Shown in pieces: positions 2,449-44,142 of a stretch of 44,142 bases of DNA (its first letter is position 1; each line of letters starts with the position of its first letter). Made by a program: the position numbers and the translations under genes. Below the pieces are notes generated by a model. That model searched no databases, was not told the origin of the DNA, and saw only the letters and a list, made by a program, of their open reading frames with translations. The stretch is taken from positions 81,415-125,556 of the forward strand of contig CAJAHH010000111.1 in assembly GCA_903939515.1 (NCBI GenBank), given 5' to 3'. The stretch comes from an uncultured Verrucomicrobiota bacterium. GTDB lineage: Bacteria > Verrucomicrobiota > Verrucomicrobiia > Limisphaerales > UBA9464.

Positions 2449-2474
2449 AGTCAAGGGGTCAAGTCAAGGGGTCA
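2449..2474 (+). repeat. 13-bp perfect tandem duplication at RAYT terminus A
   Basis: The unit AGTCAAGGGGTCA occurs at 2449-2461 and again at 2462-2474, the second copy running into the conserved element terminus GTCAGTTCTTAATATTG (2471-2487). Confidence 0.85.
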
Positions 2475-2587
2475 GTTCTTAATATTGATACATAAAGCGG
2501 CCGAAGCCACTGTCCAGTCATGGCCTGCAAGTTGAGGGTCGAGTATGCTGGCGCAGATGAGCGAGCGGATGGGGGCGGAGCATTACG
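2471..2587 (+). mobile_element. RAYT-derived element, copy A (left end only)
   Basis: The segment starts with the terminus GTCAGTTCTTAATATTG and shares about 115 bp with copy B (offset 145 bp, five or so differences): the AT-rich leader ATACATAAAGCGGCC, then the first ten codons of a RAYT transposase (ATG at 2520, encoding MACKLRVEYA). The reading frame then jumps directly to sequence resembling the transposase C-terminal part (MSERMGAEHYERARG in another frame), so the catalytic core is absent. The right end is missing because copy B begins here. Alternative explanation: a local 145-bp tandem duplication rather than an independent insertion. Confidence 0.75.
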
Positions 2588-2619
2588 AGCGGGCAAGGGG
2601 TCAAGCGGGCAAGGGGTCA
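2588..2619 (+). repeat. 16-bp perfect tandem duplication at RAYT terminus B
   Basis: The unit AGCGGGCAAGGGGTCA is present at 2588-2603 and 2604-2619, directly abutting the terminus GTCAGTTCTTGATATTG (2616-2632). Part of the unit appears to derive from transposase C-terminal coding sequence of copy A (in frame as ERARGQ), so copy B sits inside copy A. Confidence 0.85.
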
Positions 2620-3006
2620 GTTCTTGATATTGATACATAAAGCGGCCGAAGCCACTGTCCAGTCATGGCCCGCAAGTTGAGGGTCGAGTATGCTGACGCA
2701 GATGAGTGAGCGGATGGGTGCGGAGCATTAAGGCGAGTAGCGCGCGGAGACGGCGGAGGCGCTGGCCTAGTTAATCATCGCGGAGGAGTTGAAGCTGGGG
2801 CGGTGGCAGGAAGCTGATCTCAAAACTCGGCCCAAGGGCGATTCAGTGAAGGTGGCTTTGGCGGCGCGCCTGCGGGCGGAGACAACGATGACGGTGGGGT
2901 GGATCGCTGAGCGTCTGGTGATGGGCACGCGCGGTTATCTGAACCATCTCTTGTATCGCCGAAGGAAGCTGGGCGGGGAGTAGACAATATCAAGAACTGA
3001 CCCTTT
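2611..3006 (+). mobile_element. Non-autonomous RAYT-derived (MITE-like) element, copy B
   Basis: The element is bounded by a perfect 17-bp inverted repeat: GTCAGTTCTTGATATTG at 2616-2632 and its complement CAATATCAAGAACTGAC at 2985-3001. It is about 0.4 kb long and contains the 5' end of a Y1/RAYT transposase gene joined to its 3' end. The HUH/Tyr catalytic core is missing, so movement would need a transposase supplied elsewhere (a related copy lies at 43.9 kb). The same 5'/3' junction is present in copy A. Knowledge: RAYTs are single-copy or low-copy IS200-related transposases associated with REP-like palindromes; long perfect terminal inverted repeats plus an internal deletion give this one a MITE-like look. 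Confidence 0.75.
2665..2983 (+). pseudogene. Internally deleted and decayed RAYT transposase
   Basis: The start ATG at 2665 gives MARKLRVEYA, the usual RAYT N-terminus, but the frame ends within a few codons after the deletion junction (TGA at about 2707). The C-terminal third reappears in another frame from about 2780 to TAG 2981-2983 and reads EELKLGRWQEADL, then RPKGD, LAARLRAETTMTVGWIAERL, GTRGYLNHLLYRRRKL, typical of the helical C-terminal domain of verrucomicrobial RAYTs. Further stops (TAA, TAG) interrupt the 2730-2775 stretch. No functional product is expected. Confidence 0.8.
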
Positions 3007-3023
3007 TTCTTGACCCTTTTCTC
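2998..3023 (+). repeat. Near-perfect tandem duplication at right terminus of copy B
   Basis: The unit TGACCCTTTTTCT (2998-3010) is followed by TGACCCTTTTCT (from 3011), differing by one T. It immediately follows the terminus CAATATCAAGAACTGAC (2985-3001). On the complementary strand this is the same arrangement as at the left termini, a duplicated unit containing GGGTCA. Confidence 0.75.
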
Positions 3024-3061
3024 TGGCGAGAAGATGGCGGGTGCTTGGGTGGGCATTGTGT

Positions 3062-3496
3062 TCAGGAGGTGATGATATTGATTCCCTTTAGACCAAAAAA
3101 CGGAGCGGCGGCGAGGAAGTGGCGGTCGTTGGAATAAACCTCGGTAAAACCGTGCTCAGCCGCACATGCAAGGTGGAGGGCGTCGGCGGCGCGGAGGAAG
3201 GCGGTTTGCGGAAGTTTGGCATACCGTCCAGCCATCGAAGCGACGAGAGCCGCTTCAGCTGGGAGCCAAAGATATGCCTCGGCGGCGCAGTCATTTTGAA
3301 ACTGCTCCACACAAGCTTGAAAGATGGCCGAGGCTAGCCGCCCCTCCCGAAAAGCTCGATGTAATGCTGCAGGAACCTCCACCAATGCGTGCCCTGCGGA
3401 TGCAACTTGATCCTTATAGCAAAGCTCACGAACCGCTTCGTGACCGGGCTCAGCAAGGTAAAGCCGCACCAGATAGCTGGTGTCGCAGTAAATCAT
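3062..3496 (-). CDS. vapC: PIN-domain ribonuclease toxin (VapC-like)
   Basis: This 144-residue protein has the PIN-domain acidic set: D5 in MIYCDTSYLV, E in HALVEVPAAL, D in RAADALHLA and D in VYSNDRHF. Family knowledge: VapC toxins are Mg-dependent endoribonucleases that cut tRNA or rRNA when freed from their antitoxin. The gene overlaps its upstream partner by 4 bp (TCAT at 3493-3496, ATGA on the coding strand), the usual coupled vapB-vapC arrangement. The pair lies between RAYT-derived termini at 3.0 and 4.05 kb, so acquisition or mobilisation with flanking elements is plausible but not shown. Confidence 0.88.
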   Translation of the reverse strand: MIYCDTSYLVRLYLAEPGHEAVRELCYKDQVASAGHALVEVPAALHRAFREGRLASAIFQACVEQFQNDCAAEAYLWLPAEAALVASMAGRYAKLPQTAFLRAADALHLACAAEHGFTEVYSNDRHFLAAAPFFGLKGINIITS

Positions 3497-3768
3497 AGAA
3501 AGACGTCATCCTTGATGTCTGCGATGATGTCGTCGATTGAGCCGGTGCCTGGCGTCAGCTTATTTAGACCAGATTCTTCCGCAGCGGCGAACTCCGGCGT
3601 CAGCTTACGCCGAGCGAAATAAGGAACAGTAGCCGTGGCCGTGGCCGGATCAGTCAGATTTTTTTCCAAGGACGTCAGAACGATTTGTCTGAGGGTCTGG
3701 CCGCATTCAATGGCACGTATTTTAACTTTTTTGTAAAGCGCTTCCGGGATGTCTATGGTCGTTTTCAT
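3493..3768 (-). CDS. vapB: VapB-like ribbon-helix-helix antitoxin
   Basis: This 91-residue protein begins MKTTIDIPEALYKKVKIRA, a beta-strand followed by helix typical of ribbon-helix-helix DNA-binding antitoxins, and ends with an acidic tail (SIDDIIADIKDDVFL) of the kind that occupies the PIN active site. It precedes and overlaps the PIN toxin by 4 bp, consistent with autoregulated co-expression. A perfect 10-bp inverted repeat lies 17-42 bp upstream of its ATG and is a likely operator. No strong Shine-Dalgarno is visible. Exact VapB subclass was not determined. Confidence 0.82.
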   Translation of the reverse strand: MKTTIDIPEALYKKVKIRAIECGQTLRQIVLTSLEKNLTDPATATATVPYFARRKLTPEFAAAEESGLNKLTPGTGSIDDIIADIKDDVFL

Positions 3769-3784
3769 GGATTTAAAATATAGA

Positions 3785-3810
3785 AAGACGGATTCCCGTC
3801 AATCCGTCTT
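3785..3810 (-). promoter_or_regulatory. Candidate autoregulatory operator of the vapBC pair
   Basis: A perfect inverted repeat, AAGACGGATT (3785-3794) and AATCCGTCTT (3801-3810) with 6-bp spacing, lies just upstream of the antitoxin start at 3768. Between it and the ATG, the coding strand carries TATATTTT, a possible -10. Position and symmetry fit binding by an RHH antitoxin; a terminator is less likely because there is no T-run in either orientation. Confidence 0.55.
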
Positions 3811-3913
3811 CCCATCTTTAATGACGAGCCTAGTGACGAGTTCGCGGTAGGTCTTCTCGTGGACCTGTCCCATCGCATCCGGCAAGACGAAGCCCCGTCC
3901 GGATTGGAAACCG

Positions 3914-4044
3914 GAGGCGGCGCACTTGCGGGCGGAGACGACGATGACGGTGGGGTGGATCGCCGATCGTCTGGCGATGGGTACGCGGGGTTATCTGAAC
4001 CATCTCTTGTCTTGTATCGCCGGAGGAAGCTGAGTGAGGAGTAA
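3914..4044 (+). pseudogene. RAYT transposase C-terminal remnant (copy D)
   Basis: In frame, the stretch reads HLRAETTMTVGWIADRL, MGTRGYLNHLL, then SCIAGGS and a stop, closely matching the end of the copy B transposase. A 5-bp insertion (TTGTC near 4008) shifts the last codons out of frame. No 5' part is present. It ends at a conserved terminus, CAATATCAAGAACTGAC (4046-4062). Confidence 0.75.
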
Positions 4045-4045
4045 C

Positions 4046-4122
4046 CAATATCAAGAACTGACCCGTTTACTGACCCGTTTACGTTTAAGTATCAAGAACT
4101 GCCCCCTTCACGACCCCTTCAC
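4046..4122 (+). repeat. Two stacked RAYT right termini with tandem-duplicated flanks
   Basis: The first terminus is CAATATCAAGAACTGAC at 4046-4062, followed by TGACCCGTTTAC repeated perfectly (4059-4070 and 4071-4082). The second is a shortened terminus, TATCAAGAACTG (4090-4101), followed by GCCCCCTTCAC (4101-4111) and GACCCCTTCAC (4112-4122), one mismatch. The stacked ends imply successive insertions at one spot. Confidence 0.75.
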
Positions 4123-4141
4123 GGGGGACCCATTGAACCCT

Positions 4142-7400: not shown

Positions 7401-7537
7401 CGGGACTCAGGTCGCCGCACAGACGGCGCTTCCTAACCACCAACTCAAACCCCTTCACCGGTAGCGCGCCGGAACGAAACAATGTGGGACCAGGACTGCT
7501 GGCCAAGACCGTCCCCGTCTGGGATCTATGGCGCTCC

Positions 7538-7636
7538 AGCACCTTCAGCACCTTCAGCACCTTCAGCACCTTCAGCACCTTCAGCACCTTCAGCACCTCC
7601 AACATCGCCAGCATCTCCGGCACCTCCAGCATCTCC
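7538..7636. repeat. 9-bp minisatellite (AGCACCTTC)n
   Basis: Six perfect copies of AGCACCTTC occupy 7538-7591, followed by about five degenerate copies (AGCACCTCC, AACATCGCC, AGCATCTCC, GGCACCTCC, AGCATCTCC). All six frames stay open across it, which explains the overlapping spurious ORFs here. Confidence 0.9.
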
Positions 7637-43899: not shown

Positions 43900-43923
43900 G
43901 GAAATAGGGTCGGAAATAGGGTC
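43900..43923 (+). repeat. 12-bp perfect tandem duplication at RAYT terminus E
   Basis: GGAAATAGGGTC occurs at 43900-43911 and 43912-43923, abutting the terminus GTCGGTTCTTGATATTG (43921-43937). The unit is unlike those at the 2.4-4.1 kb termini except for its GGGTC end. Confidence 0.85.
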
Positions 43924-44142
43924 GGTTCTTGATATTGATACATAAAGCGGCCAAAGGCGCTCCCCCGGCCCGGCCCGCTAGTTGAGAGTCGAGTAGGCTG
44001 GCGCGATTTATCACGTCATGAATCGCGGTGACCGGCGCGAACTGATCTTCATGGATGATGCGGATCGCCAGCGCTTCATCGACACGCTGGGCGAGGCTTG
44101 CGCCAAGACGGGCAGGCAGGTTCACGCCTATGTCCTCATGCC
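43921..44142 (+). mobile_element. RAYT element, copy E (runs off the window)
   Basis: It has the same terminus and leader as copies A and B (TTCTTGATATTGATACATAAAGCGGCC) but continues into the transposase body, so it is closer to full length than they are. It shows that elements carrying the catalytic part exist in this genome. Confidence 0.8.
43973..44142 (+). pseudogene. RAYT (Y1 HUH) transposase, broken and partial
   Basis: In frame from 43973 the translation is AR-stop-LRVE-stop-AGAIYHVMNRGDRREL, then IFMDDADRQRFIDTLGEACA and KTGRQVHAYVLMP at the window edge. The start codon is lost (ATG of the other copies reads CCG) and TAG stands at 43979 and 43994. Downstream sequence matches the family well up to the point where the HUH motif (NHFH in relatives) would follow. 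An internal ATG at 44018 would skip the first strand, so this copy is probably inactive. Confidence 0.8.

Follow-up and report, generated by a model that had tools for sequence, protein, structure and literature searches.

Junction-anchored tandem arrays at the ends of a TIRtron element in an uncultured Verrucomicrobiota bacterium and its relatives

The window analysed here is a stretch of 44,142 nucleotides (contig C111:81415-125556) from the genome G000 of an uncultured Verrucomicrobiota bacterium (4.71 Mb, 160 contigs), and it holds several copies of an element that, as judged from its sequence, is a TIRtron, the transposon of a HUH/Y1 tyrosine transposase (TIRYT). At the ends of this element we find tandem arrays whose units start near the insertion junction and stop at variable depths, which occur at both element ends, display no clear excess of microhomology, change at fixed insertions and recur in a second TIRtron family. 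As to their origin, we consider the chances about even that the units arise at the inserted end, where the HUH transposase would nick the DNA, the resulting 3'-OH would be extended briefly and the old end would be resealed.

The original prediction held that six termini in the window each carry a side-by-side duplication of their own. All six are present, five being detected by Tandem Repeats Finder and the sixth read in the sequence. In the window, positions 2475-2997 and about 3916-4099 have copies that are short or truncated, and the genome contains 24 exact sites of GTTCTTGATATTG, compared with none of the reversed control. The termini and the element parts that they belong to are listed below.

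2449-2474, + strand: 13-bp tandem duplication (AGTCAAGGGGTCA twice) at the left terminus of a truncated element copy (Tandem Repeats Finder, 100%)
2465-2730, + strand: diverged 145-bp tandem duplication, in which the terminus and about 135 bp of the element are repeated (Tandem Repeats Finder, period 145, 1.8 copies, 95% matches)
2588-2619, + strand: 16-bp tandem duplication (AGCGGGCAAGGGGTCA twice) at a left terminus (Tandem Repeats Finder, 100%)
2620-2997, + strand: short element without transposase gene, bounded by two GTTCTTGATATTG ends, with an orthologue in the relative G014
2998-3024, - strand: imperfect tandem duplication of about 13 bp at the right terminus, read in the sequence; the G014 orthologue has a single unit
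3916-4058, - strand: truncated fragment of the element's right end (terminus at 4046-4058; left limit judged by eye)
4059-4082, - strand: 12-bp tandem duplication (TGACCCGTTTAC twice on the + strand; Tandem Repeats Finder, 4057-4082, 100%)
4083-4123, - strand: truncated outer copy of the terminus (GTTCTTGATACTT, 4087-4099), which has an 11-bp duplication of its own (4103-4123, 1.9 copies by Tandem Repeats Finder)
43900-43923, + strand: 12-bp tandem duplication (GGAAATAGGGTC twice; Tandem Repeats Finder, 43900-43925, 100%); the site is empty in the relative G001
43925-44142, + strand: left end of a full-type element, with a transposase open reading frame that starts near 44018 and continues past the end of the contig

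For a wider count, 136 distinct termini (mismatches allowed) were taken from the genome itself and from a chosen part of the places among the matches listed, leaving out those of G002, G007, G008, G009 and G018; one was dropped for its short flank, and because termini nested within one array were counted singly, the remaining 135 are not fully independent. A unit-length tandem duplication with at most one mismatch is present at 44 of the 135, compared with a mean of 0.09 and a maximum of 1 in 100 rounds of flank shuffling. Perfect duplications are found at 33, compared with 24 of 14,600 random positions of the same loci and three of 258 other GGGTC[A/G] sites; the duplications are thus real and tied to element ends. 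Perfect cases occur at left (12/37), right (12/55) and unassigned ends (9/43), and by genome they amount to 12/26 in G000, 4/23 in G014, 7/14 in G017, 3/14 in G034, 2/11 in G036, 1/11 in each of G001 and G016, 2/7 in G005, 1/2 in G003, 0/1 in G010, 0/4 in G028 and 0/11 in the others. The original prediction had set beforehand that a lack of duplication at most other termini would count against it, and by the strict count this is what we find, with 102 of the 135 lacking a perfect duplication: the signature is frequent, not universal.

The duplicated units differ from copy to copy, as predicted, and they are not ordinary flanking target-site duplications. The claim that copies share only GGGTC is too strong: nearly all units hold (A)AAGGGGTC[A/G] or a close variant, and private letters are few. 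Exchanging flanks among termini left a mean score of 23.5 of 135 in the one-mismatch test (maximum 34, 30 rounds), since the greater part of every unit is shared by all termini. The host flank in each unit can be a few nucleotides at most.

Alleles without the element were sought within the genus with 17 plus 16 flanks, and 13 sites proved usable: C41:1440, C153:973, C55:4664, window 43925, C108 and a G017 insertion absent from G000 in the first set, and L069-3848 (six genomes), L069-609 (three), L102-1364 (three), L092-1413 (three), L085-615 (two), L065-1591 (one) and L093+651 (one) in the second. L102+654 was left out (relative 84% identical, junction unclear), and L025+1432, L025+5578 against G007, L064+580 and L027-1939 were uninformative. 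Inspected by eye, none of the 13 empty junctions has GGGTC, so this motif came with the element and is part of the terminal repeat, not a target; moreover, GGGGTCAG fits the published terminal-repeat consensus GGGGWSAS (PMC3733652). The predicted insertion at a GGGTC-type target is rejected on the strength of these sites, and the idea that the units are target-derived duplications made on insertion there is very improbable. What survives of it is that some units contain one to three real host nucleotides; in addition, a longer flank stretch looks repeated by eye in L345, and the empty flank of L102-1364 ends CGGTC, a one-base variant of GGGTC. Its main part is refuted by the 13 junctions, and relatives that carry the same insertion with a single unit speak against it as well.

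The empty sites at C141 were not counted, as relatives hold other repeat-like DNA there. The flank at this end of G000 (L031), gcctatcag, also occurs in G005, G003 and two contigs of G002 (L139, L129, L130, L141), where different AAAAGGGG-type repeat DNA follows it, as if the site attracted several terminal-repeat families.

The usable sites also place the units relative to the insertion junction. At the ten duplicated termini among them, one of which (L085-615) has a mismatch between units, the first unit starts no more than about 3 nt from the inferred junction (by eye). Some units include the final letters of the flank: GGC at L092-1413, CG at L085-615 and G at L069-3848. These letters bear on two alternatives. 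Further copies might have landed at an old terminus and been reduced to stubs, which would agree with the frequency of truncated ends, such as the 49-bp solo right end on C7 and the stubs of about 60-119 bp on C117, and with composite ends like that at window 4046-4123, where two different private sequences occur. However, independent insertions would not copy flank letters, and the array stubs repeat the same flank-side letters, some of them true flank (L092-1413, L085-615), which makes repeated insertion improbable. Alternatively, an array could have been brought ready-made from a donor site, in which case it would trivially start at the junction. Private letters missing from the empty flank at C55:4664 and L069-609 are in line with this, and a stretch of about 18 nt immediately beyond the terminus (ending AACTGCCATTCGGGTC; L033 just before 118, L082 just before 142) is common to G000 C153 and G001 C17, whose further flanks do not align, so that donor flank may travel with the element. 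Units that contain the last letters of the local flank, however, must have formed in place, and we regard carried-in arrays as a quite improbable general explanation. Both processes may add cases.

The extent of the units follows a simple pattern. Measured from GTTC, the perfect duplications start at -11 (nine cases), -12 (11) or -13 nt (six) in 26 of the 33, which is approximately the beginning of the A-run in the terminal repeat. In 28 of the 33 the homology stops 0-3 nt beyond GGGGTCA, with a tail to 24. Some units reach far into the element, namely 18 bp at C141, 24 bp at L091, 37 bp at C108 and 60 bp at C117, and over all cases the unit end lies at a depth of 0 to about 135 bp; the 145-bp duplication of the window (2465-2730) has the same start, at the terminus, and a deep end within the element. 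In arrays of several units (C117, C108, C7, C141, L091, L253) the starts of the units are the same or almost the same, while the depths at which they stop differ; GAAAAG opens every unit at C7:38418.

Replication slippage would account for the arrays without the transposase: a polymerase stalls near the element end, perhaps because of pairing between the left and right terminal repeats, and primes again slightly upstream. Tandem units of 11-16 bp are of a plausible size for this, such pairing is possible, and microhomology of two nucleotides is somewhat more frequent than under the null (7/33 versus about 10%). However, mean microhomology is 0.81, compared with 0.69 for simulated duplications (leaving aside two array cases of 12 or more), and 15 of the 33 have none, so that microhomology is not clearly in excess. 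There is also no stable local hairpin in the two example ends inspected. Microhomology slippage and local-hairpin stalling were judged insufficient. In addition, the outer breakpoint follows the insertion junction, which slippage leaves unexplained, and several unit lengths share one common start; as the source of the arrays we therefore consider it rather unlikely. It very probably helps to resize arrays that already exist, for example the sevenfold AAAAGGAC tract in L253.

Two comparisons between genomes reveal that unit number differs at one and the same insertion. One concerns the 49-bp solo right end at C7:41577, which is common to G000 and G017 in a flank of 99.5% identity and carries two units in the former but a single unit in the latter. 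The other concerns the orthologous element of about 377 bp at window 2997, with two units in G000 and one in G014; here G000 has 16 extra letters, so that the G014 sequence would not result from simple loss of a 13-bp unit. Arrays therefore change after insertion, and formation of the units during insertion, as in the original prediction, is not required. Two further pairs were left unused: G014 C199 and G001 C157 may represent two separate insertions at a distance of 9 bp, and in G016 two contigs with one flank have two and three units, with differing element interiors, which could be due to assembly.

A second TIRtron family (AAAGGGGACAGATTTATTTT) was found via a plasmid record. Among 37 loci (30 of the RAYT family, three plasmid regions and four related loci) only L219 has a paired GGGGWSAS terminal repeat; an exact match to the second-family repeat is present in 12 of 369 genomes of the class of G252. 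A scan with the L219 repeat yielded four virus-like contigs in IMG/VR (L251-L254), two of which (L251, L253) carry long arrays. That of L253 (3600-3870; IMGVR_UViG_3300046542_000320) is very long and anchored at the junction: GAC stands in front of all 20 copies of the A-run, one of which reads AAAAGT; the last letters of the flank are GGAC, and the unit ends fall at GG, GGGGAC, GGGGACT, GGGGACAAG or GGGGACAGATTTATTTT. Scans of viral contigs with three guessed terminal repeats found nothing, and a scan of a phage collection gave no match. Arrays in the second family and in virus-like contigs indicate that the process is not private to the genus, though its rate differs much.

The origin at the inserted end that we proposed above would proceed as follows. 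The transposase would nick one strand at the junction of flank and AAAAGGGG element, or up to a few nucleotides outside it, leaving a 3'-OH on the flank and the 5' end of the element held on the enzyme tyrosine. A polymerase would extend the 3'-OH into the element, usually by 11-14 nt and sometimes by tens of nucleotides or more, and the held, displaced old end would be resealed to the new 3' end. The product would be the junction to a variable depth, followed by the junction with the complete element, and repeated rounds would give arrays. Such a cycle would need no microhomology, could act at either end and would be repeatable. According to a paper on TnpA-REP, HUH cleavage produces a 5'-phosphotyrosine and a 3'-OH able to prime replication or to act in strand transfer, and priming and strand transfer are both named there as possible routes by which repetitive extragenic palindrome (REP) sequences spread (PMC8266576). 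The transposase as the agent that nicks and reseals, and the extension step itself, are what we infer from the pattern of the units.

Several points weigh against this mechanism. Only 33 of the 135 termini have a perfect duplication, and the second family is poorer still, with perfect duplications at two of 34 distinct termini (30 loci, two test positions) and at none of the 14 termini of plasmid NZ_CP116719 under the strict test, where two ends look imperfectly duplicated. Unit starts are inexact, by about -3 to +3 nt, two-nucleotide microhomology is the somewhat raised class mentioned above, and in some units one to three letters are in neither the empty flank nor the element (TT at C55:4664, GGT at L069-609). 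For the empty sites, the comparison is with other species of the genus (about 83-99% identity) and not with sister strains. With two units in place, their number can shift by ordinary slippage or recombination, and unit loss by slippage is possible for the C7:41577 pair. Finally, the cleavage point is deduced from where the units start, and bench work on a TIRYT was not found in the accessible parts of the literature covered.

If the arrays are products of nicking, extension and resealing, then cleavage point and extension lengths can be read from sequence for elements that have no assay, and a simple PCR readout of transposase activity becomes available. A more far-reaching and tentative possibility, which we think doubtful, is that TIRYTs move by copying, the nick at each end priming templated synthesis of the element from a host 3'-OH, with the arrays as abortive products; they would then be a readable record of how this enzyme family moves DNA. 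On the view that arrays come from nicking, extension and resealing, short tandem repeats beside such ends should also not be taken for target-site duplications.

The assignment of the element is based on its terminal repeats and on a protein domain. The terminal inverted repeats are about 24 bp long, begin AAAAGGGGTCA and read approximately AAAAGGGGTCRGTTCTTGATATTG. On contig C55, inverted copies of (A)AAAGGGGTC[A/G]GTTCTTGATATTG enclose a 274-aa protein, P0001 (L027:1101-1925), a full-length relative of the window gene, and GGGGWSAS-type GGGGTCAG occurs inverted at both ends (C55:1009 and 1939); some variant ends read GGGGTCGG or GGGTCAG in place of GGGGTCAG. The domain PF01797 (Y1_Tnp) is matched at E = 8.6e-8 by P0001 and at 1.1e-6 by P0002, and HFH and YVHLNP, which we take to be the transposase motifs, are visible in P0001. 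The NCBIfam model REP_Tyr_transpos (NF047646) scores 40.1 and 32.1 bits for the two proteins, under its curated cut-off of 80, and a profile search (E up to 10) for the C-terminal helix-turn-helix of TIRYTs (Bac_DnaA_C, HTH_23 or HTH_28) gave only a weak winged-helix-like match below cut-off (E = 0.092, 227-254). Two example ends were inspected for hairpins: neither forms a stable local hairpin (fold versus shuffles, z = +0.32 and +0.68), and in place of a GTAG-tagged REP hairpin the element ends have AAAAGGGGTCAG. By its terminal repeats and domain the element would belong to RAYT group 1, which equals TnpA-REP subclass 2.1 (PMC6006769, 2018).

The 64 related loci are mostly from verrucomicrobial metagenome bins, 26 being labelled Akkermansia muciniphila; two with 33% identity (L197, L198) are labelled Roseateles and Burkholderiaceae, and the GGGGWSAS motif is absent from these two and from L213. 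A Spartobacteria genome has GGGGTCAGTCCTTTT-type ends (L169:2685 and 3532) near a 71%-identical transposase; its GGGGTCAG ends are of another, sister terminal-repeat type, with no duplication visible. In G034 and G028 (L114, L116, L118, L120), inverted end pairs only about 72 bp apart form REPIN-like mini-elements of the TIRtron. Another repeat, with GGGGTCAGG(G/A)AACGATTTC, lies beside element ends at L072, at L138 and, near 1400, at L026; it is perhaps a further GGGGTCA-headed family. Elsewhere in the window, two small genes beside the element (3060-3770, - strand) resemble by eye what we take to be a putative PIN-type toxin and its partner, and an unrelated 9-bp tandem repeat (CAGCACCTT, about 10.6 copies) lies at 7537-7631.

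TIRtrons and their TIRYTs were described in 2013 with the terminal motif GGGGWSAS (PMC3733652), and the present element resembles them in its HUH/Y1 gene between long terminal inverted repeats with this motif (here GGGGTCAG); repeated solo ends and clusters have likewise been reported for TIRtrons. Junction-anchored duplication of the ends does not figure in the accessible text of that paper, which uses neither "direct repeat" nor "duplicat" and has "tandem" eight times, in the instances displayed not about TIRtron ends, while the accessible text of PMC6006769 does not use "tandem" at all. Nor was a description of such arrays found in the literature searched, which mostly excludes subscription papers, and this lack is not proof of absence. 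Members of IS200/IS605 (IS608, ISDra2) share the HUH/Y1 chemistry, but known ones have neither terminal inverted repeats nor larger target duplications (PMC2817692), and they adjoin a conserved target tetranucleotide (PMC6006769), whereas here GGGTC moves with the element: as an IS200/IS605-type target left behind, GGGTC, the only candidate looked at, is found at none of the 13 empty sites. The REP sequences and bacterial interspersed mosaic elements (BIMEs) of RAYT groups 2 and 3 (TnpA-REP) belong to a related enzyme family, and GTAG REPs form clusters reiterated in tandem with flanking DNA segments (PMC3733652); they differ in their GTAG-tagged hairpins, whereas the units described here have no local hairpin and restart at the junction. 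Helitrons, of HUH rolling-circle type, have reported tandem insertions, truncated ones included (PMC5148889), but they use eukaryotic Y2 enzymes, and their tandems are read as insertions, not as iterated restarts of one end. Among the sources available to us, the tandem REP clusters with flanking DNA and the tandem Helitron insertions are the nearest reports to the arrays at TIRtron ends.

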